DNA from: Thiobacillus denitrificans | GTDB taxonomy: Bacteria; Pseudomonadota; Gammaproteobacteria; Burkholderiales; Thiobacillaceae | Direction: 5' to 3' | Assembly: GCA_020723405.1 (NCBI GenBank) | Contig: DYIY01000002.1 | Coordinates: 62,001 to 126,000 of the forward strand | Length of the DNA: 64,000 nucleotides | In this document: piece by piece, positions 9,433 through 62,179 of the stretch | How the letters are laid out: every line of letters starts with the position of its first letter | Numbering within the stretch: the stretch's first letter is position 1 | Made by a program: the position numbers and the translations under genes | Notes under the pieces: model-generated | What the model was told of the DNA's origin: nothing | Database searches by the model: none | What the model saw: only the letters and a program-made list of their open reading frames with translations

Positions 9433-9434
9433 CA

Positions 9435-11062: not shown

Positions 11063-11069
11063 GGTGGCC

Positions 11070-14475: not shown

Positions 14476-15302
14476 CGCGCGCACGTCTGGGTGTGCTGGG
14501 CGCGCTTCTCTGTAGCGCCTTCGCCTCGGCACAGCCGCTGGAGGCCAAGTCGTTTCTGCTGGACAAGGAACGGGGCTGGTTCTGGTACGAGCAGGCGCCG
14601 GCACCCGTCGAGACCGCGCCGAAACCGAAGGGCGAAGCGGGGCAGGCCACCGGCAAACCGGTCGAGGTTCGGATGTATGAGCAGTTCAAGGCCGGCATGG
14701 AAGAGGCTCGGATCGTCGCCATGTTCAATCCTACCCAGGCGAACGTGGAGCGCTACGTCCAGTACCGCACCGCCCTGGTGAAGCTGGCCGATCAACTGGC
14801 CGAGGCGGGCCAGCGGGTGGTCTGGGCGAACCCCGAATACGATTTCACCCAGGCGCGGCCGGTGTCGGCCGTCGGCCTACAGGTGCATGACGCGGAGAAA
14901 TCGGAACAGCACCGGCGGACCTTCGACCGCCTGGCCAAGACCCACGTGTTGTACTTCTTCTTCAAGTCGGACTGCCCCTACTGCCACGCCTTTGCACCGG
15001 TCCTGCTGGGTTTCTCGCAGGCCACCGGGATCAAGATATTTCCGGTGTCGCTCGATGGCGGTGGTTTGCCGGAGTTTCCCCAACCGCATAAGGACCATGG
15101 CCAAGCGGCGGCGCTGGGCGCCACGACCGTGCCGGCCGTCTACCTGGCCAATCCATTGACCCACGAAATCACGCCGGTCGCCTTCGGCATCCAGTCCGAA
15201 ACGGAACTGGTCGACCGCGTCATGGCCATCGCCAATCCGGGTATGAGCGGCTTTGTCGATGCCTTGACGCCCATTCGTTCCCTGGAGGGATTAGCACCTT
15301 GA
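14472..15302 (+). CDS. traF: TraF thioredoxin-fold pilus-assembly protein with intact CxxC
   Basis: A 276-aa exported protein, GTG start at 14472. The N-terminal GWFWYE and NPTQANVERYVQYRTAL motifs are typical of F-type TraF. The C-terminal thioredoxin-like domain has an active-site-like CPYC in FKSDCPYCHAFAPVL (about residues 168-171) and a TVPAVYL cis-Pro loop, so this copy probably keeps redox activity, unlike F TraF which as I recall lacks the pair. Together with the DsbC-like protein it could oxidise TraN, TraU and TraH. The stop overlaps the traH start. Confidence 0.9.
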   Translation: MTRARLGVLGALLCSAFASAQPLEAKSFLLDKERGWFWYEQAPAPVETAPKPKGEAGQATGKPVEVRMYEQFKAGMEEARIVAMFNPTQANVERYVQYRTALVKLADQLAEAGQRVVWANPEYDFTQARPVSAVGLQVHDAEKSEQHRRTFDRLAKTHVLYFFFKSDCPYCHAFAPVLLGFSQATGIKIFPVSLDGGGLPEFPQPHKDHGQAAALGATTVPAVYLANPLTHEITPVAFGIQSETELVDRVMAIANPGMSGFVDALTPIRSLEGLAP

Positions 15303-42499: not shown

Positions 42500-45400
42500 T
42501 CACAACGCCTCGGCATCGCGGTCGGCGAGCAGACGCTCGGCATCCCGGCGCCCGAACAGCCAGAACAGCGCGGGGGTGAGATATGTGTCGAGCAGGGTGG
42601 AGCTGATGAGTCCGGAGAAGATGACCACGGCCACCGGGTGGAGGATTTCCGTGCCGGGTCGTTCCGCCTCGAACAGCAGCGGGGCCAGGGCGAAGGCGGT
42701 AACCAGGGCGGTCATCAGCACCGGCGCCAAGCGCTCCAGCGAACCGCGCACGATCATCGTGTGATCGAAGTCCTCGCCTTCGCGGCGCATCAGGTTGATG
42801 TAGTGGCTGACCTTGAGGATGCCGTTGCGTACCGAGATGCCGGCCAGGGTGATGAAGCCGATAAGCGCCGCCACGGAAAGCGGCTGCCCGGATAGCCACA
42901 GCCCCAGCACCGCGCCCACCAGGGCCAGCGGGATGTTGGCCATGATCAACAACGACAGCCGCGCCGACTTGTAGCGGCTGTAAAGCACCACGAACATCAG
43001 CGTGAGCGACACGATGGACAACAGGCCGACCAGCTTCGAGGCCTCTTCCTGGGCCTGGAACTGGCCGCCCAGGGTGACGAAGTAGCCCTCGGGCAGTTTC
43101 GTGCCCCCGACCGCCTTGCGGATGTCGGCCACCACCTCGGACAGTGCCCGGCCCTGGGCGTTGGCCGAGAGGACGATGCGGCGCTTGCCGTCGTCGCGGC
43201 TGATCTGGTTGGGGCCGTCGCTATCCTCGATGGTGGCGATGCGCGACAGGGGCACGCTGCCGCTCGGAGTGCTGAACTGGATGCGACTTAAGCCCTCCAC
43301 CGTGCGCGCCGATTCCGGCAGACGCATGACCAGGGCGAAACGCCGGCCGCCCTCGACGATCTGGGCGGATTTCTCGCCCTCCACCAGGCCTTGCAGCATG
43401 GCCAGGATTTGCGGCGTCGGCACGCCGTATTGCGCCGCTGCCGCATAGTCGATGCGCACCTTGATCTGGGGTGCGAGCACCTGCTTTTCGATTTGCAGGT
43501 CGGCCAGCCCGGGGATGCCGGCAAGCTTGCCGCGCAGCAGGTCGGCCTGGGCGCGCAGGGTATCCAGGTCATCGCCGTAGATCTTGATGGCGATCTGCGA
43601 GCGCACACCGGACAGCATGTGGTCGATGCGATGCGAAATGGGCTGGCCGATTTCGATGGCGGCGGGCAGGTTGATGAGGCGCCCGCGGATGTCGGCCTTG
43701 ATGTCGTCCAGCGGTCGGGTCAATTCGGCGGCAGGCTTGATGCCCACGTCCAGTTCGCTGACATGCACCCCCTCGGCATGCTCGTCCAGTTCGGCGCGGC
43801 CACTGCGCCGTCCGACATGAACCACCTCCGGCACCTGGCGCACCAACACCTCGGCCTGCCGCGCCAGGGCGGACGATTCGGCCAGGGTCACCCCAGGATT
43901 CAGGCGCAGACCGATGAGCAGGGTGCCCTCGTTGAACGGCGGCAGGAAGGTGGTGGGGAAGAACGGCACCGCCACCGCCGCTACCAGCACCGCCGTAGCC
44001 CCCGCCGCCAAGGCTGCACGGGGTCGGTCCAGCACGGCTTGCAGGCTGCCGCGATACCTGGACTTGAGCCAGGCCAAGAGCCGCGTATCGCCGTGGTCGA
44101 GGGACTTCATTCGGGGAAGGAGGTAGAACGCCAGCACCGGGGTGATGGACACCGACACCACCAGGGAGGCCAGGGTCGAGACGATGAAGGCGATCCCGAG
44201 TGGCACGAACAGCCTGCCCTCCATGCCGGGCAGGGCGAACAGCGGCAGGAATACCAGCACGATGATGAGCGTGGCGTAAAGGATGGCGGAACGTACCTCC
44301 AGGGTGGCGTGGGCCACCAGCTCGATGGGATGCAGGCGATGATCAGGGTGCTTGGCCCGGTCTTCCTTAAGCCGTCGCAAGACGTTCTCGATGCCCACCA
44401 CCGCATCGTCCACCAGGCCGCCGATGGCGATGGCGAGTCCCCCGAGGGTCATGGTGTTGATCGACATGCCGAAATACTTGAACACCAATGCGGTCATGAA
44501 GATCGACACCGGGATGGCGGTGAGTGCGATCACGGTCGGGCGCAAGGTGCCCAGGAAGAAGAACAGGATCACCGCGACGAACACCGAGGCGCCGATCAGC
44601 TTGCCCTTCAAGGTATCGATGGAGGCCTCGATGAAGCTGGCCTGGCGGAAGGTGACACGGGGCTCGGCCATGCCCGCTGGAAGTCCCTGCTTGAGCGAGC
44701 CCAGGGCGTCCTCGATGGAGCGGGTCAGCCCGATGGTGTCCGCCGTGGGCTGTTTCTGGATGCCCAGGATCACCGCCGGGCGGCCCTCGAATCCGGCGTC
44801 GCCGCGCTTGATGGCCGGGGCGAAGGTCACCTCGGCGATCTGGCGCAGCAGGATGGGTTGGCCGCTGCGCGCAGTCAGCGCCAGATTCTTCAGGTCTTCC
44901 AGGCGCGAGGTGCGGCCCAGATTGCGGATCAGATATTCCCGGCCGTTGAGTTCCAGGAAGCCCCCCGACGAGTTCGAGGAGAAGCCGCGCAGGGCGCCGT
45001 CGAGTTGGTCGTGATTGACACCCAGTTCCGCCATGCGCACGGTATCCGGCTGCACCTGGAACTGGCGCACCTCGCCGCCGATGGGGATGACCTGCGCGAC
45101 GCCGGGGATCGCCATGAGGCGAGGCCGGAGTACCCAGTCGGCGTATTCGCGCACCTGCATGGGGGTGATCTTTCCCGTGTCGATGGGGATGGCGATCTGC
45201 ATGATCTCGCCCATGATCGAGCTGATCGGCCCCATGCGCGGCGTCACCCCATCGGGCAGACCTTCTTCCATGGAGGTGAGGCGTTCCGAGACCATCTGCC
45301 GCGCCCGGAAGATGTCGGTGCGCCAGTCGAAGGTGACGTAGATGAAGGACAGTCCGGCGCTGGACACCGAACGCACGCTCTCCACCCCAGGCAGGCCGTT

Positions 45401-45619
45401 CATGGTGGTCTCCAGCGGGAAGGTGATGAGTTGCTCCACCTCCTCCGGGGCCATGCCGCCCGCCTCGGTCATCAGGGTGACGGTGGGCTTGTTGAGGTCG
45501 GGAAAGACGTCCACCGGCGTCTGCATCAGGGTGAATGCGCCGTAGGCCATCACCACCAGGCTGGCGATGATCACCAGCAGCCGGTTGGTCAGGCTGTTGT
45601 CGAGTAGCCACTTGAACAT
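42500..45619 (-). CDS. czcA: Heavy-metal efflux RND transporter (CzcA family), pump 2
   Basis: A 1039-aa HME-RND pump. ATG 45619 (MFKWLLDNSLTNRLLVIIAS start). Family motifs match pump 1: [19 protein letters not shown] and helix 4 [13 protein letters not shown] with the same two acidic residues at 404-405. The periplasmic segment RIDHMLSGVRSQIAIKIYG aligns with [19 protein letters not shown] in pump 1. The preceding czcI-like gene and nearby CDF/CadR genes suggest Zn, Cd or Co as substrates, by context. Confidence 0.93.
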   Translation of the reverse strand: MFKWLLDNSLTNRLLVIIASLVVMAYGAFTLMQTPVDVFPDLNKPTVTLMTEAGGMAPEEVEQLITFPLETTMNGLPGVESVRSVSSAGLSFIYVTFDWRTDIFRARQMVSERLTSMEEGLPDGVTPRMGPISSIMGEIMQIAIPIDTGKITPMQVREYADWVLRPRLMAIPGVAQVIPIGGEVRQFQVQPDTVRMAELGVNHDQLDGALRGFSSNSSGGFLELNGREYLIRNLGRTSRLEDLKNLALTARSGQPILLRQIAEVTFAPAIKRGDAGFEGRPAVILGIQKQPTADTIGLTRSIEDALGSLKQGLPAGMAEPRVTFRQASFIEASIDTLKGKLIGASVFVAVILFFFLGTLRPTVIALTAIPVSIFMTALVFKYFGMSINTMTLGGLAIAIGGLVDDAVVGIENVLRRLKEDRAKHPDHRLHPIELVAHATLEVRSAILYATLIIVLVFLPLFALPGMEGRLFVPLGIAFIVSTLASLVVSVSITPVLAFYLLPRMKSLDHGDTRLLAWLKSRYRGSLQAVLDRPRAALAAGATAVLVAAVAVPFFPTTFLPPFNEGTLLIGLRLNPGVTLAESSALARQAEVLVRQVPEVVHVGRRSGRAELDEHAEGVHVSELDVGIKPAAELTRPLDDIKADIRGRLINLPAAIEIGQPISHRIDHMLSGVRSQIAIKIYGDDLDTLRAQADLLRGKLAGIPGLADLQIEKQVLAPQIKVRIDYAAAAQYGVPTPQILAMLQGLVEGEKSAQIVEGGRRFALVMRLPESARTVEGLSRIQFSTPSGSVPLSRIATIEDSDGPNQISRDDGKRRIVLSANAQGRALSEVVADIRKAVGGTKLPEGYFVTLGGQFQAQEEASKLVGLLSIVSLTLMFVVLYSRYKSARLSLLIMANIPLALVGAVLGLWLSGQPLSVAALIGFITLAGISVRNGILKVSHYINLMRREGEDFDHTMIVRGSLERLAPVLMTALVTAFALAPLLFEAERPGTEILHPVAVVIFSGLISSTLLDTYLTPALFWLFGRRDAERLLADRDAEAL

Positions 45620-45629
45620 GATGGCGCCC

Positions 45630-46730
45630 CTACCTGACCTGATTGACCAGCGTCGCGCCACGCACCACCACCCGGTCGCCCGCCTTCAGGCCGGTGGTCA
45701 CCGCCACGTTCGCACCGTCCAGGGGTTCCACCGTCACCGTGCGCGGTTCGAAGCGTTCCGGCGCGGTCTTGACCCAGACGATGGCCTGGTTGGCCGGGTT
45801 TTTCACCAACGCCGCCGCCGGCACGCGATAGCCCTGCACGGTGCTCCGGGTCAACGCGAAAACCTTGACCGGCTGGCCCAACGCCAGATTGGCCAAGGCA
45901 TTGCCCTCGCCACGGAACATCAGGGGCAAGGCCTGTTCGCGCAGGCTGCGGGCAGCGCCGACGAAGGCCAGCGGCACCCGCGCATCGCCTACCGCCAGGC
46001 TGCCGGAAACCACGTCCAAGGCCTGTGCGGTGTCGTAGGCAAGCGCTTCGACGCGCGAGCGGTTGGGATCGACCACCTCGAACACCGCCTCGCGTGCCTC
46101 GACTACCTGCCCAGCCACGGCATTGCTCATGGCGACCACGCCTGTGACCGGCGCGACCAGGGCATCGCGGTTGGAAAGTCCGGCACCCAGGGCGGCGATG
46201 CGCCCGTTGAGGCTATCGACCTCGCTCTCAGCCGCCTCGATCTCCTTTCTCGGGATGGTGTCGGCCAGTTCCTTCAGGCGGGTCAGCCGCTTCTCGGCCA
46301 GACCCTTGGTGGCACGCAATTCCGCCAGTTGAGCGGACTGGTTGGAGCGCTCGATCATGCCGGCGGACGGCACTACCCAGGCCAGCACCTCGCCTTTGTT
46401 GACCCGTTGTCCGAGGCTGGGGAAGCCGCGCGGGCCGGGCTCCAGCCTGCCGGCGATGAGGGCCTGAACCTTGCCGCCGGCATTGGGGTCCATGACCACC
46501 TTGCCGGAGAGTTCGAAGGCACGGGGCAGCGCGCCTTCCTCCACTGGCTGGGTGCGCACACCAATCTGGCGTTGCGCTGGCTTGGGCATGAAGACGCCGC
46601 CATCGGGCAGCCGCTTGGGGCCGCTACTGTTGGCGGCCGGAGAGGCGTCGCCGTGGTCGTGGCCCTCACCGGCATGGGCACCGGACACCAAGGCCAGGCA
46701 GAAGATGGCTATAAGGGCGAGCGGTTTCAT
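45630..46730 (-). CDS. czcB: Membrane-fusion protein of RND pump 2 (CzcB family)
   Basis: A 366-aa periplasmic adaptor. Signal peptide ends GAHA, His-rich GEGHDHGD, then KRLPDGGVFMPKPAQRQIGVR, lipoyl halves KVVMDPNAGGKVQALIAGRL and [19 protein letters not shown], and a C-terminal GDRVVVRGATLVNQVR. It parallels the adaptor at 31020-32180 throughout. Start overlaps the upstream stop (ATGA). Confidence 0.92.
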   Translation of the reverse strand: MKPLALIAIFCLALVSGAHAGEGHDHGDASPAANSSGPKRLPDGGVFMPKPAQRQIGVRTQPVEEGALPRAFELSGKVVMDPNAGGKVQALIAGRLEPGPRGFPSLGQRVNKGEVLAWVVPSAGMIERSNQSAQLAELRATKGLAEKRLTRLKELADTIPRKEIEAAESEVDSLNGRIAALGAGLSNRDALVAPVTGVVAMSNAVAGQVVEAREAVFEVVDPNRSRVEALAYDTAQALDVVSGSLAVGDARVPLAFVGAARSLREQALPLMFRGEGNALANLALGQPVKVFALTRSTVQGYRVPAAALVKNPANQAIVWVKTAPERFEPRTVTVEPLDGANVAVTTGLKAGDRVVVRGATLVNQVR

Positions 46731-50381: not shown

Positions 50382-50858
50382 ATGCGCATCGGTGATCTGG
50401 CGAAAGCCACCGGGGTGGATATCGAGACCATCCGCTATTACGAGAAGGCCGGACTGCTGCCCGAGCCCGGACGCGAGGCCAATGGCTACCGTGCCTACCA
50501 GCAGGCTCATCTGGAACGACTGGCCTTCATCCGTCATTGCCGGGCATTGGACATGCCCCTGGAGTCGATCCGACGCCTGCTGGATTTCGTCGCCCACCCA
50601 GAGGCGGAGTGTGGCGACATCAACCGGCTGATCGACGAGCAATTGGCTCGTGTGCAGGCGCGGCTCAACAGCTTACGCGCACTGGAGAGCCAACTTGCTG
50701 CGTTGCGGGCGCAATGCGGAGAAAACCACAGCGCACGGGAGTGCGGTATTTTGCATGAATTGGTGGCAGCAGCACATGGCGAGGCTTGTGCATGCCATTT
50801 CGATGCTAAATCTGGCAGTCATTATTTACTCATGGGGAAACAAAAAAACCGCCCATGA
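50382..50858 (+). CDS. cadR: MerR-family heavy-metal regulator (CadR/PbrR type)
   Basis: A 158-aa regulator. The HTH is MRIGDLAKATGVDIETIRYYEKAGLLPEPGR; a long dimerisation helix follows. Metal-site cysteines match the CadR/PbrR group: one in EAECGDIN, one in RAQCGEN and one in ARECGILHEL. A C-terminal HGEACACHFD tail adds a second Cys/His site, as in CadR. It should sense Cd(II), Pb(II) or Zn(II) and activate the divergent transporter. Confidence 0.9.
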   Translation: MRIGDLAKATGVDIETIRYYEKAGLLPEPGREANGYRAYQQAHLERLAFIRHCRALDMPLESIRRLLDFVAHPEAECGDINRLIDEQLARVQARLNSLRALESQLAALRAQCGENHSARECGILHELVAAAHGEACACHFDAKSGSHYLLMGKQKNRP

Positions 50859-53995: not shown

Positions 53996-54721
53996 TCAGG
54001 CCGCGAGCGACAATTCCTGCGGGGTGGTTTCACCGGCTTCAGCCTGGCGCGTGAGCACCCGGTTTTTCACCAGAAGGGAAATGGCTTGGGTGAAGTTCTC
54101 TCCCAAATCGATCAGCGAGGCCTGGATAGGCCCCAGGGCCGGCCAGGTAGCCTTGGCGTTGAGATCGGTGATGATCTTTTCGCCCAGGGCGGCCAGCACC
54201 GGCTCGCACCAGGCTTCGATCAGCGGCACCGGAGAGATGCGCTGGATCATCGCCCAGACCGATTGCCGGTGATCTTGGCCATCGTTGCCGAAAGTCAGTA
54301 CCCAGGCCCGGCCGTTGGCCGTGTCCGGGTCGATGACCATTGGGTCGTAGATGAAGACGTGCGACACCGGCCCGAACAAAGACCGGCGCGGCAGCTTGCC
54401 CGCCAGCTTGGTCAGCCGCGAGGCATCGCCGATGAAGGCGATACCCCGGTGGTCTTCCCCTGCCGGCGCTTCGGGATGAAGCGTTACCACGCCCGCCACG
54501 CCGTCGCCGGGCCGAGGCGGGGCCTTGACCGGCTTCAACGTGATGCGGTCGACACCGCCGGACGTTACCGGCAGCGAGAAGGCCGCCAGCAATTGCTGGA
54601 TGGCGGTATCCCGGCCGTAGAGCGATGCGAACATGAGCTGGCCTGCTTCGTTGCGGACCAGGGCGTCGAGAAAGACATCCGAAAACTCCCGGATGCCCCA
54701 CAAAGGTACAGATGCGGACAT
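53996..54721 (-). CDS. Hypothetical ICE protein upstream of the helicase
   Basis: A 241-aa protein without signal peptide or membrane segment. GGAGG lies upstream of ATG 54721. Segments of note: SHVFIYDPMVIDPDTANGRAW, VWAMIQRISPVPLIEAWCEPV. No family recognised. The leader contains a perfect 9-bp stem GTGGGGCTC/GAGCCCCAC (54742-54750, 54765-54773) and the upstream repeated pseudoknot element. Next to the helicase and methyltransferase, it may act with them. Confidence 0.7.
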   Translation of the reverse strand: MSASVPLWGIREFSDVFLDALVRNEAGQLMFASLYGRDTAIQQLLAAFSLPVTSGGVDRITLKPVKAPPRPGDGVAGVVTLHPEAPAGEDHRGIAFIGDASRLTKLAGKLPRRSLFGPVSHVFIYDPMVIDPDTANGRAWVLTFGNDGQDHRQSVWAMIQRISPVPLIEAWCEPVLAALGEKIITDLNAKATWPALGPIQASLIDLGENFTQAISLLVKNRVLTRQAEAGETTPQELSLAA

Positions 54722-54809
54722 GATGATGAGCCTCCAAGGTAGTGGGGCTCTTCCCGGTGGGGGCGAGCCCCACGGGGGTGATGAATCACCGATCGGATGA
54801 TCGGCTTGC

Positions 54810-54900
54810 TCCCGGCGCCAGACGCCGATCCGGTTTCAGGGATGACCGGACCTCGATGCTTACGGCATCGGCGAGTCGAAAACCGTTCGACCAGCGGTGG
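54810..54900. ncRNA. Repeated structured leader element, copy A
   Basis: Three hairpins in plus-strand order: H1 TCCGG (54829-54833)/CCGGA (54846-54850) with loop TTTCAGGGATGA; H2 CGATGC (54854-54859)/GCATCG (54865-54870); H3 GTCGAA (54875-54880)/TTCGAC (54886-54891) with loop AACCG, then CGGTGG. H1's loop GGGA (54839-54842) can pair with TCCC (54810-54813), a pseudoknot. Other copies keep the same plan with different stem sequences. It lies 89 bases before the gene starting at 54721. Confidence 0.7.
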
Positions 54901-54964
54901 TGCCAGTGCCAGTTACGGCCAAGCGGCCAAGGGCCTTTCCGAAGCACCCGCCAGGCAGGCGCTT

Positions 54965-54988
54965 CAAAAAGACCCCTCGATGAGGGGT
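54965..54988 (-). terminator. Terminator after the DNA methyltransferase gene
   Basis: Leftward, ACCCCTC (complement of 54982-54988) and GAGGGGT (complement of 54972-54978) form a 7-bp stem with a 3-nt loop, followed by CTTTTTG. It is 22 bases after the methyltransferase stop. Confidence 0.8.
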
Positions 54989-55010
54989 AAAGGGAGGAGC
55001 CACATGAAGC

Positions 55011-56111
55011 TCAGCGTATGGTGAGCACGTCCCCGAAGGTCATGCTCCCGGCCGTGAAATCGATGGCCCGGATCACCGGCACGAAGCGATCGGTCAGGAT
55101 GCGCGTCTCGGAGACGTCGCCCTTCGCGTCGGTCTCGTGCTGTACCGAAACCTCTTTTTCCTTGTAGGTCGAGCCCTTGATGAGATAGGTGCGGCCATCC
55201 TCGGCGTCCACGAAACCGCCGATCTGGCCCGCCGCCAACCCGAGCGCCAGGTGCCAGTCCGACAGCATCCGCAAGGGACGCCGATGGACCTGGGCCTGAG
55301 CGCTGAAGGTGCGCGGGAAACTCGGCCACAAAGTGCTGGCATGATGCTTGGCGACCTCGGCCGCCAGTTCCGGACCATTCAGGCGAATCGCCTGGAAAAC
55401 CAGGTCCTCGCCAACGGGCATCTCGGGCACCAGCAGCGGCGCATGCGGCCAGGCCTCGGGCAATTCGGCTGGTGGCGTGTCTCTTGCCGCCATCAAGGCC
55501 TCGACCTGCCCCTTGGACGGGGCGGCGGCGCGGCGCTTGATGCCGAAGACGACCATCTGCTTGAACTGCCGTTCCGGCGCCGACCAGGCCGTGAGGTGGG
55601 TGAAGTGGCGGCACAGATAGTTGGCCATCTCCTCGCTCATGACCGTGTGCGGCACGATGAAGACCAGCACTCCGCCCGCCTGGAGCCATCCCGCCGTCTT
55701 GCGCAGGAAGAGCAACTCCAGCCGTTCGCTGTGCTTGCCATCACCGGTCTGCCCGGTGTCGGCCACGGTATGGCCATAGGGTGGGTTCAGGAACAGCAAC
55801 CCGGTCGATCTGGCCGATACCCAGGCATCGTTCATATCGGCATGGAGCACGGTATCGAGCAATTGCTTGGCGTGCCAGGCACGTTCGGCGTCGAACTCGA
55901 TGGCCAGGGCTTCGACGGCGGCGCCGGCCTCGGTCAGGGCATGCTTGACCTCGGCCAGGGCGACGCCCTCGCCGCAGCACGGGTCCGCGATGCGGACCCG
56001 TGTGCCGGCGATATCGAGCGCGTTGAGGATGCGGGCGAGGGTGACCTCGTCGGTGGGGAAGTAGCCATTTTTAATAAAATTGCGGGCGAGCCGCGAGAAC
56101 ATGAGTCCCAT
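55011..56111 (-). CDS. DNA methyltransferase-like protein (DUF6094 type)
   Basis: A 366-aa protein. Start 56111 is favoured by GGAGA upstream. The N-terminus SRLARNFIKNGYFPTDEVTL is the mobile-element methyltransferase start; SAM motif I is IADPCCGEGVAL (DPCCGEG at 43-49) and the catalytic motif NPPY is at 109-112, as in N6-adenine methyltransferases. The C-terminal half is the variable part. Leader: a perfect 10-bp hairpin covers the ribosome site. Often found beside such helicases on ICEs. Confidence 0.85.
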   Translation of the reverse strand: MGLMFSRLARNFIKNGYFPTDEVTLARILNALDIAGTRVRIADPCCGEGVALAEVKHALTEAGAAVEALAIEFDAERAWHAKQLLDTVLHADMNDAWVSARSTGLLFLNPPYGHTVADTGQTGDGKHSERLELLFLRKTAGWLQAGGVLVFIVPHTVMSEEMANYLCRHFTHLTAWSAPERQFKQMVVFGIKRRAAAPSKGQVEALMAARDTPPAELPEAWPHAPLLVPEMPVGEDLVFQAIRLNGPELAAEVAKHHASTLWPSFPRTFSAQAQVHRRPLRMLSDWHLALGLAAGQIGGFVDAEDGRTYLIKGSTYKEKEVSVQHETDAKGDVSETRILTDRFVPVIRAIDFTAGSMTFGDVLTIR

Positions 56112-56167
56112 GGTTGTCTCCAGGAAATGCGGAGACAACCTGCCCCAGGCGGGGAGGATATCCCCGC
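56112..56167 (-). promoter_or_regulatory. Leader of the methyltransferase gene with sequestered ribosome site
   Basis: Reading leftward, GGTTGTCTCC (complement of 56131-56140) pairs perfectly over 10 bp with GGAGACAACC (complement of 56112-56121), which contains the Shine-Dalgarno and touches the ATG. A second stem, GCGGGGA (56149-56155)/TCCCCGC (56161-56167), lies upstream. Similar pairs of stems precede several other genes of the module. Confidence 0.75.
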
Positions 56168-56189
56168 GAGGGTTGAGTAAAACAGCTAT

Positions 56190-56231
56190 GTCCCGGACCT
56201 TGCGGCCGTGCGTGTTTCAGGGACTGACGCG
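56190..56231. ncRNA. Repeated structured leader element, copy D (H1 only)
   Basis: GTCCC (56190-56194) can pair with GGGAC (56220-56224) in the loop of H1, GCGTG (56210-56214)/CGCGC (56228-56232 region, one wobble on the plus strand). The 18 bases after position 56190 are identical to copies B and C. H2 and H3 are absent because the upstream gene ends here. 79 bases before the methyltransferase start. Confidence 0.6.
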
Positions 56232-56244
56232 CCTCGAAAAGCCT

Positions 56245-56472
56245 TCATACGATGTAAGCAGGACAGGGCTGATCGGGATCGATCGGCCCTGCAATGAGCT
56301 CGCCGGTATCGGTGTGGTAGACCTCCACCCAAAGCCCGCGCCGATGAAAATGGCGGGTCTTCGCGCTCGCGGACGAACGATCCGGGCAGTAATCGAAATC
56401 GGCCAGGTTGTCCCTGGCATACCCTTCGCGCGTACGCGGGTCGCTGGTGCTGGCCTCGACGGTGAATTGCAT
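56245..56472 (-). CDS. Small hypothetical protein
   Basis: A 75-aa protein, AGGAG seven bases before ATG 56472. Segments: TREGYARDNLADFDYCPDRSS and RRGLWVEVYHTDTGELIAGP. No signal peptide; looks like a small soluble beta-rich protein. Downstream of the DUF6927-like gene, probably in its transcript. Confidence 0.65.
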   Translation of the reverse strand: MQFTVEASTSDPRTREGYARDNLADFDYCPDRSSASAKTRHFHRRGLWVEVYHTDTGELIAGPIDPDQPCPAYIV

Positions 56473-56543
56473 GTTCACGCTCCTGGAAATACGACCAGCC
56501 CGCGACGGGGCCGGTACGATGGATTGAACTCTCGGTGGTCGAG

Positions 56544-57080
56544 TTAGGCCGCCAGGCGCTGATCGACTACCTTGGCCAGGATTCGGGGAGGAATGCGGTA
56601 CAGACAGCCACCGTATTCGCCCACGAGGCGCCGACCTTGTTTCGAAACGATCTTGACCTCGGGGATGGCAAGCCCCTCGAAGATCAACACATCGCCGATA
56701 TCGACCTTGCGTTTGCGCGAGGCATGCCAAGCGCGGACCTGGGCGCGCCAATCCGCATCGGCAACCGGCGCCATGTCCAGGTAGGACAAGGGACAGGTGT
56801 TGTAGCAAGGCCCCATGCTTTCGCACAGATCCTTGTAACCCCAGCCTTCGCCCTTCCTGCCGGGCGCCAGCAAGTCGCAGCCGATATAACGATAGGGCTC
56901 CCTGTAGGCCATGGGCGGCTTCGGATCGGCGGGAGTGACCTCCCATACCGTCCAGAGCACATTGCCCACTGCCGTGTGACGCAGGCATTCCCAGCGGGTG
57001 CCATCGGCCTGCGTAGCCGACCGGGTGCGCTCCTGGATGAGCTGCCGCCGGTTGCTATCGAATGTCACGGTCCATCCCAT
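56544..57080 (-). CDS. DUF6927-like mobile-element protein
   Basis: A 178-aa protein starting MGWTVTF, with GGAGG eight bases upstream of 57080. The segment YIGCDLL and the GWGYKDLCESMGPCYNTCPLS block with LDMAP resemble DUF6927 proteins of ICEs and plasmids. Seven or more Cys. The C-terminus (DIGDVLIFEGLAIPEVKIVS) may be a small beta domain. Function unknown. Its leader has TTTCCT/AGGAAA pairing over the ribosome site (57086-57091 with 57106-57111). Confidence 0.72.
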   Translation of the reverse strand: MGWTVTFDSNRRQLIQERTRSATQADGTRWECLRHTAVGNVLWTVWEVTPADPKPPMAYREPYRYIGCDLLAPGRKGEGWGYKDLCESMGPCYNTCPLSYLDMAPVADADWRAQVRAWHASRKRKVDIGDVLIFEGLAIPEVKIVSKQGRRLVGEYGGCLYRIPPRILAKVVDQRLAA

Positions 57081-57183
57081 GATGATTTCCTCCATGCTGA
57101 GCCGAAGGAAACGCAGCCCCTCCAGGGCGGCGAAGCACCCCGGCGGGTTGAGATAAAACCCCTTACGGGGCGGATTTGATGAA

Positions 57184-57276
57184 GTCCCGGACCTTGCGGC
57201 CGTGCTCGTTTCAGGGACTGACGAACGGCGATCCTTGACGGGGATCGAGCGGGCTGTAACCGACAGCCGGCGGTGG
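57184..57276. ncRNA. Repeated structured leader element, copy B
   Basis: Pseudoknot strand GTCCC (57184-57188) with loop GGGAC (57214-57218). H1 TCGT (57206-57209)/ACGA (57221-57224). H2 CGATCC (57229-57234)/GGATCG (57242-57247), loop TTGACGG. H3 GGCTGT (57252-57257)/ACAGCC (57263-57268), loop AACCG, then CGGTGG ending 57276. About 100 bp are near-identical to copy C. 104 bases before the gene at 57080. Confidence 0.75.
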
Positions 57277-57292
57277 AACACGGATGGCGCTC

Positions 57293-57348
57293 GGCCTTTC
57301 CTGGGGCGTTGAGGCAACGGCCCAGGAAAGGCCCCTCGATGAGGGGCC
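57293..57348 (-). terminator. Overlapping stems after the 216-aa gene, terminator-like
   Basis: GGCCCCTC (57330-57337)/GAGGGGCC (57341-57348) is an 8-bp stem with a 3-nt loop, 14 bases after the stop at 57363 and followed leftward by TTTCC. It shares bases with a larger stem, GGCCTTTCCTGGG (57293-57305)/CCCAGGAAAGGCC (57321-57333), perfect over 13 bp. The two are mutually exclusive, like a terminator and antiterminator. Confidence 0.55.
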
Positions 57349-57362
57349 AAGTTGAAGAAGGA

Positions 57363-58013
57363 TCAGCCTTCCGATTCCGCTTGCCATACACCGGCGACGA
57401 ACTCGGGATCGAGATCCACGCCATGAGAGATGATCGTGGCCAGGGTGGTCGAGCCACCGCTCTGCGGCACCTCGACTGCGCCATCGTCCACATCGTTCAT
57501 GTCGTAATCGAGCACGACGAGTTCCACCGGCCTGTCGGACGACGCGCCCTGGACCAGGCCGCCCTCGACACCGACCACGACGCGGGGCCGGGGCGACTCA
57601 GGCATCCTGGTCGGATGGCCATCAACTGCCATTCGAGCCAGCCGATATGCGGTTTCAACGAGCGATTGCTCATAGTCGCCAGGCGTCGGGCCGTTCAGAC
57701 CGCGCATCGACTCCGCCACCACCAGAAGACGACAAGCCTCCATGGCGTTCGCCGTGCGGCGTTGCTGGAGAACGCTGGCATCCGGTACCGGCCAGGCAGC
57801 CACCGTGGCCACCACCTGGAAGTCCAGCGTTTCGCCTTCCTTCTCCTCGTAATCGTCGAAGAGGAGGGGCATCGCCGGGGTGTCGTCCCAGATCGTGCCG
57901 GCATCGAAAGCGGCCTGCGCCTTGGCGAGGGCCTCTTCGTCGCTATCGGACAGAATGCCGACCTGGACGCGGTGGGCGTAATCGATGGTGTACTCGACGA
58001 TGCGCAGGTTCAT
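57363..58013 (-). CDS. Hypothetical acidic ICE protein
   Basis: A 216-aa acidic soluble protein (pI clearly low; DYEEKEGETLDF, DYDMNDVDDGAVEVP). The N-terminus NLRIVEYTIDYAHRVQVGI and the segment ANAMEACRLLVVAESMRGLNG suggest an alpha/beta fold. No family recognised. Start overlaps the stop of the 78-aa gene upstream (58010), so both form one unit. Confidence 0.68.
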   Translation of the reverse strand: MNLRIVEYTIDYAHRVQVGILSDSDEEALAKAQAAFDAGTIWDDTPAMPLLFDDYEEKEGETLDFQVVATVAAWPVPDASVLQQRRTANAMEACRLLVVAESMRGLNGPTPGDYEQSLVETAYRLARMAVDGHPTRMPESPRPRVVVGVEGGLVQGASSDRPVELVVLDYDMNDVDDGAVEVPQSGGSTTLATIISHGVDLDPEFVAGVWQAESEG

Positions 58014-58246
58014 GACGTGCCCTCCTGTGCCAGTTCCAGTTCCTTGGCGCAGAACAGCGCGATACGTTGCTTGGCGCGGCGTGTGGCTTCGAGCTGGACA
58101 TACCAGTACCCACCCGACTCGCGGCCAAACATGTTTTCACGGACGACGACGCCGATCCGGCCAGGATACTGAGGTCCGCCGAGGCGGTCTTGCTGGCGCT
58201 TGACCATGACCCGGGTACCGATGGCGATGGCTGATGATTCACTCAT
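58010..58246 (-). CDS. Small hypothetical protein with KOW-like barrel
   Basis: A 78-aa protein, start 58246 (GGAGA upstream). The pattern AIGTRVMVKRQQDRLGGPQYPGRIGVVVREN and GGYWYVQLEATRRAK resembles a small SH3/KOW-like barrel that binds nucleic acid, though not assigned to a family. Its leader repeats the TCTCC/GGAGA ribosome-site stem and GCCCCGCGGGG element. Overlaps the downstream gene by 4 bases. Confidence 0.65.
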   Translation of the reverse strand: MSESSAIAIGTRVMVKRQQDRLGGPQYPGRIGVVVRENMFGRESGGYWYVQLEATRRAKQRIALFCAKELELAQEGTS

Positions 58247-58320
58247 GATGTTCTCCAAGACAATGCGGAGACACCACGCCCCGCAGGGCAAGGCGCCCCG
58301 CGGGGTGATGAAAAAAGCGG

Positions 58321-58935
58321 TCAGATCAAACCTCGTTCCGCCATGGAAAGGGTTTGGTTGCCGGCGACAATGAAATGATCCAGAACCTTGACGTCGACCA
58401 GGGCCAGCGCCGCTTTCAGCTGATCAGTCAACCAGCGGTCGGCCTGACTGGGCTCCATCGTTCCGGATGGATGGTTGTGGCAGAGGATGACGGCACAGGC
58501 GTTGTATTCCAGGGCGATCTTGACGACCTCCCTGGGATAGACGCTGGTTTGAGTCAGCGTGCCGCGAAAGCACTCTCGCGAGGCGATCAGCCGGTTCTGC
58601 GCATCCAGGAACAACACGACGAAGGCTTCGTGAGGCAGATGTGACAGCGAGGTGATCAGATGGCTGCGCACGGCCCCCGGTGAGGACAACGCATCCCGAT
58701 GACGCAAGGACTCGGCAAAACCCCGCGTAACCAGCTCGCGGGAAACGTCGAGGAGCCGCCGGACACGGTTCCATCCATCCTCGGGCGCGGATTCACAAAC
58801 CAGATGATCCACCGCCGCCAGGCTGAAAAGTTGGTACAACGATCCCTGGTTTTCCTGCAAAAGGTTCTCGGCGGCTTGGGTGCCGACCAGAACCCCCAGC
58901 AGATCAAGGTCCGACATTTGAGAGGAGAGAGGCAT
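58321..58935 (-). CDS. radC: RadC/JAB-domain protein
   Basis: A 204-aa RadC-family protein. The JAB metal-binding motif is [15 protein letters not shown], with the upstream Glu in [17 protein letters not shown] and the downstream [11 protein letters not shown]. The N-terminal helix-hairpin-helix region of chromosomal RadC is replaced by a different short segment, as usual for ICE and phage copies. Role in ICE biology not known with certainty. Leader: CTCCA/TGGAG stem at the ribosome site. Confidence 0.9.
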
Positions 58936-59043
58936 GATGAACTCCAGTGAAGTGGAGACACCTTGCCCCGAGCGGGAACAGTGTCCCCGCGTGGGTTGAA
59001 GTAAGGGTGCGAAAGATCAGAGAAGCCTGGCTCGGACGGACGC

Positions 59044-59223
59044 TCAGGCCGGTATCCAACCTCCGTTGACCAATGCTCTGGCGGCTTCCAAATAGGTCGG
59101 ATAAACGTCTTCGGATACCCTGCAATAGCACTGCAAGTCCTCGTCGTCGGCATAGCCGGCAATGAAATAGCCTCTGCCGGGGGCGAAACCGACAATTAGC
59201 TCAGGTCGAACTTCAATATCCAT
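59044..59223 (-). CDS. Small hypothetical protein, related to 59636-59851
   Basis: A 59-aa protein, AAGGAGA before ATG 59223. The core GRGYFIAGYADDEDLQ and YPTYLEAARALVNGGW matches the pattern GYYIGTV and YFPTLEAAEAALESGAW of the 71-aa protein at 59636-59851, so these are two members of one small family. Function unknown. Confidence 0.65.
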   Translation of the reverse strand: MDIEVRPELIVGFAPGRGYFIAGYADDEDLQCYCRVSEDVYPTYLEAARALVNGGWIPA

Positions 59224-59289
59224 TTTTGTCTCCTTGGTGCAAAGGTGCGGCAAGCTGAATGCCTGCTACTTCGGGAGTGTGAAGAGTGG

Positions 59290-59379
59290 TCAAATCCAAC
59301 CGGCCCGATGCAACACCGGCCGAATCAAGCTGAAATACAGGGTGAGCCCGAAGGCCGCGCACAGGGTGAATGCGAACAT
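59290..59379 (-). CDS. 29-aa hydrophobic peptide
   Basis: A very short ORF: MFAFTLCAAFGLTLYFSLIR then a short basic tail. One membrane helix. GGAGG lies seven bases before ATG 59379, and it is preceded by a full copy of the structured leader and the ribosome-site hairpin (GGTGGTTCC/GGAAACACC), as for larger genes in this module. That context is the main reason to call it. Confidence 0.5.
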   Translation of the reverse strand: MFAFTLCAAFGLTLYFSLIRPVLHRAGWI

Positions 59380-59452
59380 GGTGGTTCCTCCAGAAAAGCG
59401 GAAACACCATGCCCCTGGCGGGGAACGGAATCCCCGCGTGGGTTGAGATGAA

Positions 59453-59545
59453 GTCCCGGACCTTGCGGCCGTGCTCGTTTCAGGGACTGACGAGCGGCGA
59501 TCCTTGACGGGGATCGAGCGGGCGGAAACCGTCTGCCGGCGGTGG
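59453..59545. ncRNA. Repeated structured leader element, copy C
   Basis: Pseudoknot strand GTCCC (59453-59457) with loop GGGAC (59483-59487). H1 CTCGT (59474-59478)/ACGAG (59490-59494). H2 CGATCC (59498-59503)/GGATCG (59511-59516). H3 GGCGGA (59521-59526)/TCTGCC (59532-59537) with loop AACCG, then CGGTGG. 74 bases before the 29-aa ORF. Confidence 0.75.
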
Positions 59546-59565
59546 AACAACGACAAGCCAGGCTG

Positions 59566-59597
59566 GCTTTTCTTCAGGGTTGTCCCTCAAGAAAAGC
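59566..59597. repeat. 32-bp near-perfect hairpin
   Basis: GCTTTTCTTCAGGG (59566-59579) and CCCTCAAGAAAAGC (59584-59597) pair with one mismatch around a 4-nt loop. It lies 39 bases after the stop of the 71-aa gene and before copy C; it may end that transcript, though no T-run follows leftward. Confidence 0.5.
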
Positions 59598-59635
59598 CCC
59601 TGGGTGAGGCGCGTGGCATCCACCAGGGCGAAGCT

Positions 59636-59851
59636 TCAGAGTTCGTACTCCAGCTGAGTCCAAGCACCCGATTCGAGTGCCGCCTCGGCGGCCTCAAGGG
59701 TGGGGAAATATTCTTCCGACTCGCGGCTGTAGGGTCCGTCCTTGGGATGAACGGTGCCGATGTAATAGCCCGCAGCACTCCGACAAACCTGGAGGGGCAG
59801 GGCGACGTTGAAACACTGTTTGGCCAGATGGCCGATCTTCTGGGGTGACAT
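59636..59851 (-). CDS. Small hypothetical protein, related to 59044-59223
   Basis: A 71-aa protein, GGGAG five bases before ATG 59851. The N-terminal half (GHLAKQCFNVALPLQVCRSA) precedes the shared core GYYIGTVHPKDGPYS and EEYFPTLEAAEAALESGAW. Function unknown. Preceded by leader copy E. Confidence 0.65.
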   Translation of the reverse strand: MSPQKIGHLAKQCFNVALPLQVCRSAAGYYIGTVHPKDGPYSRESEEYFPTLEAAEAALESGAWTQLEYEL

Positions 59852-59902
59852 GCTTACTCCCTTCTATTTTCTTGATTGGAACTGGGTTCCGGTTGCAATT
59901 AT

Positions 59903-59945
59903 GCCGCGCGCCTCTCGGTGCGTACTGTTTCAGCGGCGTCAGTAC
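59903..59945. ncRNA. Repeated structured leader element, copy E (H1 and pseudoknot strand)
   Basis: H1 GTACTG (59922-59927)/CAGTAC (59940-59945) with loop TTTCAGCGGCGT. Loop bases GCGGC (59933-59937) can pair with GCCGC (59903-59907), at exactly the same spacing as GTCCC/GGGAC in copies B, C and D. Both the stem and the loop pairing are changed together. 52 bases before the 71-aa gene. Confidence 0.6.
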
Positions 59946-59977
59946 ATTTCGGGTGGCCACAAGGGCCGGGGAAACAC

Positions 59978-60019
59978 GGCATCCGTCAGCCGGCTCGCCG
60001 GAACCGGCTGACGGATGCC
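59978..60019. repeat. Perfect 16-bp inverted repeat
   Basis: GGCATCCGTCAGCCGG (59978-59993) and CCGGCTGACGGATGCC (60004-60019) with a 10-nt loop. The strongest hairpin in the window. No T-run next to it. Could be a terminator, protein-binding site or single-strand folding site. Confidence 0.85.
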
Positions 60020-60242
60020 CTGGGGGCGAGATGCAAACGGAGTGGGTGGCTGAAATCGCGCCTCCTGGCGGCCACGGAACAGGCGCCGCCGCGTCCGGCA
60101 AGGGGAGGCCTGGACGCGCAGTTAAGGGATGCGGTTTGGGAAAGCCGCCAACCAGGCTGCAATCGCCGCTATTCGGGCTCACCCTGGAGGCCTCATTCAA
60201 GCCGCCCGGGTGAACCCGCCTGAGCGGGTTCGGAGGTTGAGA

Positions 60243-60785
60243 TTACTCAGCAGGCATTTCCCACATTTGCGTGCTGGCATCGAACCGGTAGCCATGTCCC
60301 TTGAGGGCATCGCGTTGAGCCCGGAACAGGCCGCGATCCACGGTGGGATCGAGCTTGACGGCTTTGCCGGCTTCGATGAGGTCATGGGTTTCGGCATCGA
60401 ACAACGAGGTCTCGGTTGGCGCCGCCGGCAGCGCGTCGGAAACGGGCGTGACGGCAGTCTCTTGCACCGGGCGGTTCTCGTTCGCCGGATCGGGTTCGAC
60501 CGACTCCGGCAAGGTCTCGGTATCGGGCGTTTCGGGTTCGCTCTCGACATGGATCGCCGACAGCCTGGCCCGCACTTCGACCCAGACCTTCCCGCGCCAG
60601 GTGTAGCTGGACGGGAAAATCTCCTCGATGACGAAAGTCCCGTCGTAATCGCCGGGGCTGTACTGGTCGAGAATCGCGTCCTTGACCTTGAAGGTGCCCA
60701 CGCTGGTGGACAAGTCGCCGACGCAGAAAGAACCCTTGCTGCCGTTGACCGCTTTGATGCTGAGTGTTCCGGTGATGCTGATCAT
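60243..60785 (-). CDS. DUF3275 ICE protein
   Basis: A 180-aa protein, start 60785. The start MISITGTLSIKAVNGSKGSF, LSTSVGTFKVKDAILDQY, and GDYDGTFVIEEIFPSSY match DUF3275 of ICEs and genomic islands, likely an OB-like beta domain. A Pro/Glu-rich linker (residues about 82-130) is followed by a C-terminal GYRFDASTQMWEMPAE segment. Next to DUF3577 it is probably part of ICE DNA replication or maintenance. Confidence 0.85.
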   Translation of the reverse strand: MISITGTLSIKAVNGSKGSFCVGDLSTSVGTFKVKDAILDQYSPGDYDGTFVIEEIFPSSYTWRGKVWVEVRARLSAIHVESEPETPDTETLPESVEPDPANENRPVQETAVTPVSDALPAAPTETSLFDAETHDLIEAGKAVKLDPTVDRGLFRAQRDALKGHGYRFDASTQMWEMPAE

Positions 60786-60936
60786 GATGTGCCTCCAGGA
60801 TGAAAATGAAGCCCAGCCGGAAGGCGCCATTCCCCTTGGGGAGTGGACGCACTCCCGGTAGGGATGGGTAAAACACGAAACCATGCGGATGAATCCGAAT
60901 GGCGGGTAGGGCAGGGTGCTTTGAGTTCGCCTGGGA

Positions 60937-61371
60937 TCAGGCGGCAAAGCGCATTTCAGCGAAATCGACGGGCATGCCGTCTATCTTCGCGGAGGCGATC
61001 TTGAGCAACCGTCCCTTGATCGAAACACCGGTCTGGCCTTGCTTGGGGCCGGACTGGTAAACGAAGGACTCGGGATAGATGTCACCCAAACGGAAGGCAA
61101 CCGTCACCTTCTGGTTGGCGTTGACGGCGCTCTTGAGGAATTTGACCCTCTCAAGCGCCTCGGCGCCTTCGATCTTGACATCGAAGTAGGTGGTTTCGGG
61201 CGCGTCGATCGAGCCATGCAGCGCGGCGATGGAACAAGCCCAGAACGAGCCCTTCTTGACCTTCACTTCACGGACACGATTCAAATACCCGATCCCGTTC
61301 ACATGCAGATCGAGATGCGTCTTCGGCTTCTCGGCGGCAGCGGCGGTGGGTTCAGCAGCGGTAGTGTTCAT
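60937..61371 (-). CDS. DUF3577 / STY4534-type ICE replication protein
   Basis: A 144-aa protein, AAGGAG before ATG 61371. The core HLDLHVNGIGYLNRVREVKVKKG, ACSIAALHGSIDAPETTYFD, and VTVAFRLGDIYPESFVYQSG matches DUF3577, annotated in ICEs as STY4534-family replication protein, a single-strand-binding-like fold. First gene of the leftward module. The leader contains a TCTCC/GGAGA pairing and a GGGGA/TCCCC stem. Confidence 0.88.
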   Translation of the reverse strand: MNTTAAEPTAAAAEKPKTHLDLHVNGIGYLNRVREVKVKKGSFWACSIAALHGSIDAPETTYFDVKIEGAEALERVKFLKSAVNANQKVTVAFRLGDIYPESFVYQSGPKQGQTGVSIKGRLLKIASAKIDGMPVDFAEMRFAA

Positions 61372-61978
61372 AGCGATCTCCTTGATGAAAAAACAAAGGG
61401 AGACCACTACCCGTGAGGGGAGTAAGCCTCCCCAGTGGGATGTGGGTCTTGCGACCCGATGAAACCGGTTGCCCGGCGGTGGTTGAATTGGTTTTCCGAA
61501 GCGGTGACTTACCTAGGTAATCCAGCGGGATATCCGCCAGATGTGGTGGGCCGGGAGTGTCGTGCTATCGGAATGAGCCTCCATCAGGGAATGGAGGCGA
61601 CCGGTGGGGATGCAATCCCGCGCGGTCAGAGAAAGGATTTGGCCTCGGCTCTTACGAGCGTCGCGGTGTCAGAGGCTGACCGCGATCTAGTGGCTGGATG
61701 ACGCACCAGAAGGCGAATCGCGTTACGTGCGATCAGGCGAGCCCTGAGGCTAGGGAATACGCGGACAAGTCCAACACGAAATAAAATTCGTGTCAAGGCG
61801 AAATGGCTGGCGGTGTCAGCTACTGTTTGTTCGGGCGCTTCGGGTCGCACCGTGACTTTGTACCCAAGTGAGATGACAGAATCCCGCGCGCTGCGCACTG
61901 GCCCTTCGCGCCTGAGAATGGCAGAATTGGCCAATCTTTGGAACATTCCGCCACGCGATACCAATTGGGCAGCCTGAC
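61372..61978. other. Gene-free divergent region between ICE module and R-M locus
   Basis: No gene supported in about 600 bases. It has a possible degenerate copy of the leader element (61444-61482: GGGTC/GACCC stem, AACCG, CGGTGG) and a perfect 12-bp palindrome TTACCTAGGTAA (61509-61520). A 112-aa minus frame (61626-61964) has no ribosome site or recognisable domain. Promoters for both flanking operons must lie here. Confidence 0.45.
61509..61520. promoter_or_regulatory. 12-bp perfect palindrome
   Basis: TTACCTAGGTAA in the divergent region. It could be the operator of the HTH protein encoded at 61979, inferred from symmetry and position only. Confidence 0.35.
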
Positions 61979-62179
61979 ATGACCGAAGCCGATGGCGAAA
62001 TTCTCACGCTGGAAGAAGTGGCCGCCTATCTGAAGGCAGGCAAGAAAACCGTTTATCGGCTGGCTCAGCAGGGCCAGATACCGAGCTTCAAACTGGGCGG
62101 CACCTGGCGGTTTCGCCGCACCGAGCTGGATCGCTGGATTGCAGCGCAGATTGCCGAGAAGACACAGGACAGAACATGA
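61979..62179 (+). CDS. Helix-turn-helix (excisionase-family) small protein
   Basis: A 66-aa DNA-binding protein of the HTH_17/MerR-like group: LTLEEVAAYLKAGKKTVYRLAQQGQIPSFKLGGTWRFRRTELDRW. Its stop overlaps the methyltransferase start (ATGA at 62176), so it is likely a regulator or controller of the modification locus rather than an excisionase. Confidence 0.88.
   Translation: MTEADGEILTLEEVAAYLKAGKKTVYRLAQQGQIPSFKLGGTWRFRRTELDRWIAAQIAEKTQDRT

Follow-up and report, generated by a model that had tools for sequence, protein, structure and literature searches.

A Pseudoknot RNA Repeated in Gene Leaders of an ICE-Type Module of Thiobacillus denitrificans, a Positional and Topological Counterpart of the radC RNA

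Pseudoknot Elements in the Leaders of Module Genes

The window analyzed here, a stretch of 64,000 nucleotides from Thiobacillus denitrificans that is part of a contig of 404,594 bases, harbors at 54-62 kb a module of the integrative and conjugative element (ICE) type, a label drawn from gene content only. Conserved genes of such modules, namely, those for DUF3577, DUF3275, RadC, and DUF6094, carry in their untranslated leaders a short element in which the loop of one hairpin (H1) pairs with a strand further downstream. A preliminary description had placed five copies (A-E) ahead of genes on the minus strand and had proposed a shared cis-regulatory RNA. All five exist at the positions claimed, on the minus strand, as seen by sequence inspection and with a covariance model (R1). 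H1 and the pairing of its loop are present as claimed, one H1 pair of copy B being A.C, and two hairpins ahead of H1 (H2 and H3) were confirmed for copies A, C, and D, with one A.C pair on the sense strand in H3 of copy D. The core is separated from the start codon by 84 bases in copy A, 75 in B, 100 in C, 70 in D (to a 29-codon open reading frame, ORF), and 48 in E. Overlooked in that description were a hairpin (H4) that separates H1 from the second strand of the pseudoknot, a sixth copy (F) located 267 bases upstream of the start of the DUF3577 gene, four more copies on contig C7 of the same genome, and, in many leaders, a hairpin with the Shine-Dalgarno (SD) sequence between the element and the start codon.

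R1 was seeded with 20 hand-picked copies, with H1 and H4 paired and the pseudoknot entered as sequence only. It was searched over 76 sources (the window and loci cited here by their L numbers) at E ≤ 1, a threshold at which the weakest matches may be false. Two other models were used, R2, with sequence only, and R3, a model of the 3′ half of the radC RNA (Rfam RF01754). Distances to start codons rest on a heuristic choice of start, and the gene calls, made automatically from conserved ORFs, are noisy.

Structure, Covariation, and Acting Strand

The sense RNA has the order (H3 in some copies)-(H2)-H1 5′ arm-UCA-GYCCC-UGWAA-H1 3′ arm-AC-H4-C-GGGRY. The pseudoknot is formed by 5 bp between GYCCC of the H1 loop and GGGRY past H4, its variants including GUCCC/GGGAC, GCCCC with GGGGU or GGGGC, GUUCC/GGAAU, GCCUC/GAGGC, and GCCGC/GCGGC. 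H4 has ∼4 bp and a loop that is often GNRA or UUCG. Of 101 distinct upstream stretches, 74 have a hairpin at the place of H2, as against 31.7 expected from shuffles.

The covariation claimed in the preliminary description was borne out. The 106 R1 matches were reduced to 94 by removal of identical rows and to 81 by removal of rows with at least 96% identity, and a G statistic with average product correction was compared against the values from 200 alignments that had been simulated along the inferred tree. The top 11 column pairs all belonged to H1, H4, or the pseudoknot. Three of them beat all simulated pairs: two lie in H1, and the third is pseudoknot pair 10-42 (T-A 49, C-G 27, A-T 2). Four further pairs gave E of 0.01-0.06, and the other pairs, 4/5 pseudoknot pairs among them, were individually non-significant in this test on 81 sequences. 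The pairing of a possible sixth pseudoknot pair (48/78) left it unsupported. The counts for H1 and H4 lean towards those pairs because the alignment was fitted to them; the pseudoknot was absent from the model. When the window and 74 loci were searched with a sequence-only anchor that demanded no pairing, 49 places resulted, and at 46 of these places H1 had at least four contiguous pairs. R2 gave 74 matches at E ≤ 0.1. Chance is excluded by the H1 pairing at the anchor places and by the tree-based test. Selection clearly maintains the knot.

The acting strand, earlier left open, is the sense strand (minus in the window). Over all pairs, G.U was found 77 times and A.C 15 times; the counts were 70 and 7 in H4 and the pseudoknot, and 7 and 8 in H1 alone. 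A topology descriptor run on L005-L077, where it recovers 75 of 139 known copies, gave 101 sense vs. 7 antisense hits; one round of a shuffled control gave three hits on one strand.

The loops of H4 at fixed columns of the 81 thinned sequences were GNRA in 20, GNCA in 10, UUCG in 8, other in 29, and gapped in 14. In Thiobacillus-type and related copies (L012, L013, L015, L016, and L045), the H4 arms are long or, as seen in L012 (5957, 7437, and 8731), the H1 loop contains an extra hairpin.

Distribution and Genomic Context

R1 matches were found in 26 of the 76 sources, with a maximum of 8 copies in one 21-kb locus. The start codon is 60-110 nt away for 76 of 105 copies, window copy F being exceptional, and 104 of the 106 matches are oriented with the module. 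The two exceptions (L075, 5646-5691 minus; L076, 6651-6696 minus) face away from it behind TTGACG, with no clear gene downstream by the heuristic. All 10 matches of the own genome (E ≤ 1) fall within two modules; the second (L003, C7:1-20000, at 9105-15907) has four pseudoknot copies and a DUF3577 gene of its own. Among 369 whole genomes of the class, R1 at E ≤ 0.01 matched the own genome and none of the 368 others, under stricter filters that lose weak matches. In the same genomes, DUF3577 was present in 20 and the radC RNA in 1; with R1 in 1/369 and DUF3577 in 20/369, the element belongs to some DUF3577 modules only. The covariation, the sense bias, the spacing to start codons, and the lack of R1 matches at E ≤ 0.01 in the 368 other genomes support the earlier proposal that genes of an ICE-type module share a structured RNA acting in cis.

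The features of the window are listed in Table 1. Copies resembling copy E were found in L005, L006, and L007. Among the sources with R1 matches, L007 is from Parasulfuritortus cantonensis and L020 from Aromatoleum toluvorans. The closest of 73 DUF6094 relatives, 97% identical, belongs to a metagenome-assembled genome of Gallionellaceae. DUF6094 relatives occur in 64 plasmid records, and megablast of 54000-62000 gave no plasmid match. By eye, genes that look like those for a resistance-nodulation-division metal-efflux pump (42500-45661) and a MerR-type regulator (50382-50858) adjoin the module.

Table 1. Pseudoknot elements, associated signals, and genes in the window (all on the minus strand; positions are those of the window).
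Feature	Position	Strand	Details
Copy A core	54806-54850	-	H1 UCCGG/CCGGA; H4 GGCG/CGCC; pseudoknot UCCC/GGGA; R1 32.9 bits, E 0.0018
ORF downstream of copy A	53996-54721	-	
Copy A H2	54854-54870	-	CGAUGC/GCAUCG
Copy A H3	54875-54891	-	GUCGAA/UUCGAC
Intrinsic-terminator-like hairpin upstream of copy A	54966-54988	-	ACCCCUCAUCGAGGGGU + CUUUUU
Copy B core	56187-56232	-	H4 GGCC/GGUC, GCAA loop; pseudoknot GUCCC/GGGAC; R1 53.8 bits
DUF6094 gene downstream of copy B	55011-56111	-	Pfam
SD-holding hairpin (LH2)	56112-56140	-	abuts DUF6094 start codon
Copy C core	57181-57226	-	R1 53.0 bits
ORF downstream of copy C	56544-57080	-	DUF6927-like, under Pfam cut-off
Copy C H2	57229-57247	-	
Copy C H3	57252-57268	-	
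Intrinsic-terminator-like hairpin upstream of copy C	57325-57348	-	GGCCCCUCAUCGAGGGGCC + UUUCC
RadC gene	58321-58935	-	Pfam
Copy D core	59450-59495	-	R1 56.2 bits
29-codon ORF downstream of copy D	59290-59379	-	
Copy D H2	59498-59516	-	
Copy D H3	59521-59537	-	
Copy E core	59900-59944	-	pseudoknot GCCGC/GCGGC; GAGA loop in H4; R1 25.4 bits, E 0.065
ORF downstream of copy E	59636-59851	-	
DUF3275 gene	60243-60866	-	Pfam
DUF3577 gene	60937-61371	-	Pfam PF12101, E 2.2e-41
Copy F	61639-61684	-	H1 CGCGG/CCGCG; H4 GCUC/GAGC, GUAA loop; pseudoknot GCCUC/GAGGC; R1 24.6 bits, E 0.096
TTGACA (-35-like) upstream of copy F	61791-61796	-	

Promoters, Terminators, and the Shine-Dalgarno Hairpin

The element tends to be preceded by a promoter-like site or by a signal that stops transcription. 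A TTGAC[AG] sequence is present 40-150 nt upstream of 14 of the 15 copies before DUF3577 (L017 being the sole true miss) and of 6 of the 91 others (p = 5e-12), and in none antisense. Terminators showed the reverse distribution under a strict rule that was set after the sequences had been inspected. No copy before DUF3577 had a strict terminator upstream (0/15), whereas 34 of the 91 remaining copies had a strict sense terminator in the 350 nt ahead of them (antisense 4), with the terminator ending 79-134 nt upstream of the core in 27 of the 34; a separate count over 104 copies gave 34/104 (antisense 4). The conserved genes gave a comparable result. An upstream terminator was found for 18 of 47 genes behind an element vs. 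8 of 113 without one in the same loci (p = 4e-6), and for 30 of 339 where the locus lacked R1 matches, radC loci included (p = 8e-7 against 18/47); these counts are uncorrected for some genes taken as lacking an element that actually follow one, the start having been chosen inside it (L013 3187, L016 5821, L017 13937, and L007 8002). A first count with the strict rule had given 18/71 vs. 7/171. In the window, a long hairpin at 57293-57333 (GGCCUUUCCUGGGC...GCCCCAGGAAAGGCC) shares bases with the U-tract of the terminator that precedes copy C, and similar hairpins are found upstream of other copies.

Many leaders contain two further hairpins between the element and the start codon, the second of which holds the SD sequence. 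The arms of this SD hairpin were compared with 2000 shuffles. In genes with an element, 2.54 of 5 pairs matched vs. 2.22, a value inside the shuffled range; the values were 3.24 vs. 2.45 for genes without an element in the same loci and 2.89 vs. 2.08 in loci without the element, both above every shuffle. Genes lacking the pseudoknot have the SD hairpin as well, so that this layer does not need the pseudoknot, and the SD-hairpin leader may be a separate, second leader RNA. In the leaders of many module genes (L003-L076; 56112-56140 in the window), the SD sequence forms the 3′ arm of the SD hairpin, which is preceded by a GGGG/CCCC hairpin.

Relation to the radC RNA and Further Classes

The radC RNA has been a listed candidate since 2010. 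Table 1 of PMC2864571 marks it "Y" as an RNA and "y" as cis-regulatory. Eighteen sister loci carry the Rfam radC RNA, with 44 hits at the gathering threshold and 43 kept R3 matches in the same 18 loci; seven weak R3 matches (E 0.011-0.76) had been removed, two each in the window and L026 and one each in L006, L034, and L050. The two kinds of RNA were not found together. There was no R1 match in the 18 radC loci, and no RF01754 hit at gathering (40 bits) in the 11 of 26 R1 sources scanned (the window, L003, L005, L007, L011, L013-L015, L018, L020, and L032). At lax thresholds, no radC hit was obtained in 54000-62000 (E ≤ 10) or in L020 7000-13000 (E ≤ 5). Seven loci without kept R1 or R3 matches gave no radC hit either.

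The two RNAs precede the same downstream families. DUF3577, the family most often behind the window-type motif, follows 15 of its copies and 18 of the radC RNA, a small LPLQV..GYYIGT protein follows 9 of each, and a ELSDLYADACIRD protein follows 12 and 5, respectively; the remaining families occur with one kind only. The two RNAs agree in strand, share a similar SD-hairpin leader downstream, and in the 3′ half contain H1, a tetraloop hairpin, and, by our own reading of radC, a loop pseudoknot. Five bases form the tail of the H1 loop in both, usually UUCAA in radC and UGWAA in the window-type motif. They differ in the other loop constants and in the 5′ hairpins, and the RF01754 blocks CCCAGG, CCAGUUCGC, and GCAUC are not evident in the window-type motif. 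The radC loops CGGUC, GAUC, and CGACC can pair past the tetraloop hairpin with GACCG, GAUC, and GGUCG. On 39 sequences (43 before removal of identical rows), the columns 12-46 and 11-47 of this pseudoknot ranked third and fourth among pairs with E of 0.15 and 0.17, for which reason the pseudoknot in radC is suggestive only. The radC RNA is among the families with extra supported pairs by the method of PMC7657543. The window-type pseudoknot RNA is a positional and topological counterpart of the radC RNA in sister elements.

The topology descriptor indicated further classes in loci without R1 or R3 matches. L029 and L030, two places of one genome whose identical hits are thus counted twice, have the code AAACC/GGGUU and L035 has GAACC/GGUUC, all with the tail UGCAA. 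L038, L042, and L073 have the codes GACCG/CGGUC, GAUCG/CGAUC, and GUUCG/CGAAC with a GGAA tail, and L025, L040, and L043 have a less sure CCUUC/GAAGG. Rfam gave no match to these pseudoknots in L029, L035, and L038; close to two modules it detected fragments of group II introns as well as an ALIL pseudoknot (L029 16816-19171 minus; L061 16659-16775). Loci of DUF3577 were also chosen by protein alone, using 18 of 22 listed matches outside the own genome (left out were two of G247 and those of G131 and G226). Sense hits occurred in 4 of the 18, with nine sense hits, two antisense, and 0.5 in shuffles; the best E of R1 there was only 0.99. L119 has five GGAA-class copies, the first 178 nt upstream of the DUF3577 match, and L103 is of the radC type. 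The pseudoknot build thus recurs yet is far from universal, as 14 of the 18 loci had no hit.

Rfam 15 contained no match to the window motif in the 11/26 R1 sources scanned, and at a lax threshold, 54000-62000 gave eight matches, all far below gathering scores. Among known motifs, STAXI (RF01728) is likewise a pseudoknot RNA near DNA-handling genes. It has two or three tandem pseudoknots (PMC2864571), whereas the present motif is single. Identity with STAXI was rejected, as the six window copies are at least 400 bases apart and the window has no Rfam STAXI match. Literature searches (DUF3577 with RNA motif, radC RNA, and ICE with structured RNA or antitermination) found no description of the window RNA in the library covered, and those on the radC RNA found no work on its function there. 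A "DUF3577 motif", presumably that of Weinberg (2017), is likewise positioned ahead of DUF3577 genes and may be the same RNA; if so, the RNA is already a published candidate. The window RNA, unmatched by Rfam where scanned yet of the same build as the radC RNA, is new unless it is this motif.

Possible Role in Terminator Passage and Alternative Explanations

As the SD layer is independent of the pseudoknot and the pseudoknot is enriched at starts and stops of transcription, its action was placed on transcription. We favor, at a probability of roughly 0.4, a cis-acting RNA that would let RNA polymerase pass the internal terminators of the module in the manner of put and canT, a step that we infer from the position of the copies. 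The first copy would be transcribed behind the promoter of the module, and its nascent pseudoknot would bind RNA polymerase, either directly, as the put RNA of HK022 does, or together with a protein of the element. The polymerase could then resist the intrinsic terminators between some module genes, and later copies, past terminators, would renew this resistance. Translation would be controlled separately by the SD hairpin common to genes with and without the pseudoknot. Known antitermination RNAs (Tn916 canT, HK022 put, Bacillus EAR, and pLS20 conAn) are likewise structured RNAs of operons with internal intrinsic terminators (PMC11658703), to which the present element is likened by position and build, not sequence. 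The canT RNA also lies behind the promoter of an ICE operon, and its action, by which polymerase passes the terminators of the element, provides a precedent in an ICE (PMC11658703); put acts on the polymerase without any other factor (PMC9378689).

Several observations weigh against terminator passage. The -10 boxes before DUF3577 are weak, and the full promoter rule was passed by 4 of those 15 copies (antisense 1). It was also passed by 10 of the 91 others (antisense 3), so that these internal copies may have promoters of their own, consistent with plain 5′ leaders. Of the 91 copies outside the DUF3577 leaders, 57 had no strict terminator upstream. A laxer rule based on folding gave no difference (12/30 vs. 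26/67, p = 1.0; sense 12 vs. antisense 6 of 30, p = 0.16), a detector that is too lax because stems in coding sequence swamp it. Strict terminators were found for 18 of 43 radC copies (antisense 0), but those before DUF3577 had a terminator in 7/18 and, by the full rule, a promoter-like site in 0/18, and the promoter-first pattern is therefore not general. The put, canT, and EAR systems are known with one or two RNAs per operon, as against up to eight per locus here. A NusG/RfaH paralogue as partner was rejected, as the one NusG-type protein found in the genome is encoded on another contig, outside the module.

A serious alternative, though rather improbable by our estimate, is a protein-bound translational leader, in which an element protein such as the DUF3577 product would bind the pseudoknots of its own and other leaders and control the opening of the SD hairpin. 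The gp32 protein of T4 acts on its own leader pseudoknot. The frequency of DUF3577 behind both RNAs fits this explanation, and the structural model of DUF3577 (mean predicted local distance difference test score 87.4) resembles single-stranded DNA-binding protein (SSB) and oligonucleotide/oligosaccharide-binding folds. Eight PDB matches at E ≤ 0.001 comprised five chains of bacterial SSBs (best SSB match E 3.7e-4), one Plasmodium SSB, and two trypanosome editing complexes, with an RNA-editing complex chain as the top match (E 1.3e-4), although the template modelling scores of the SSB matches were modest (0.33-0.44 on the query). The arms of the hairpin that holds the SD sequence match better than shuffled ones, the spacing to the start codon is narrow, and the loop constants are class-specific, as expected of co-evolving protein-RNA pairs. 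However, the SD hairpin is at least as clear without the pseudoknot, and the association with terminators is left unexplained.

That the element is mRNA punctuation appears unlikely. Here, the terminator hairpin would guard one 3′ end and the pseudoknot the next 5′ end after processing or re-initiation, setting mRNA stability rather than polymerase behavior. The order of terminator and pseudoknot fits this explanation, as do the second large hairpin that several copies have in between and the finding that the upstream 75 nt give, on average, better folds than their shuffles (mean z -1.1, n = 101); yet the explanation is no better than a plain leader at explaining copies behind a promoter-like site. 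A single-stranded DNA element on the transferred strand, such as a Frpo-like promoter or replication signal, seems very improbable. The module encodes SSB-like and other DNA-handling proteins, and all but two R1 matches share its orientation. Against this, the sense strand retains G.U pairs, with few A.C in H4 and the pseudoknot, which disfavors the antisense strand though not single-stranded DNA of the sense strand. The H4 loop is free of gaps in 67 thinned sequences and is GNRA or UUCG in 28 of these, UUCG having been used as an argument for RNA in STAXI (Weinberg et al., PMC2864571). A metabolite riboswitch, suggested by the compact pseudoknot fold and the conserved loops, is scarcely credible for an element with class-dependent loop constants that occurs in one kind of mobile module only, in several copies each, before DNA-handling and uncharacterized genes.

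Significance

To return to terminator passage, this motif, the radC RNA, and at least two further classes might belong to one superfamily of leader pseudoknots that serves Gram-negative ICEs as an RNA-based system of processive antitermination, an extension that we consider doubtful. Each class would have its own loop/strand code, resistance would be renewed after internal terminators, and only polymerases from the promoter of the element would read the module. To our knowledge, such a system would be the first known in Gram-negative ICEs. The shared build, with its probable pseudoknot, and the shared genomic places give the radC RNA and the window RNA a common, testable job in terminator passage. 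If true, this would explain how such elements remain quiet under read-through from the host and yet are expressed from their own promoter, as for Tn916 (PMC11658703).

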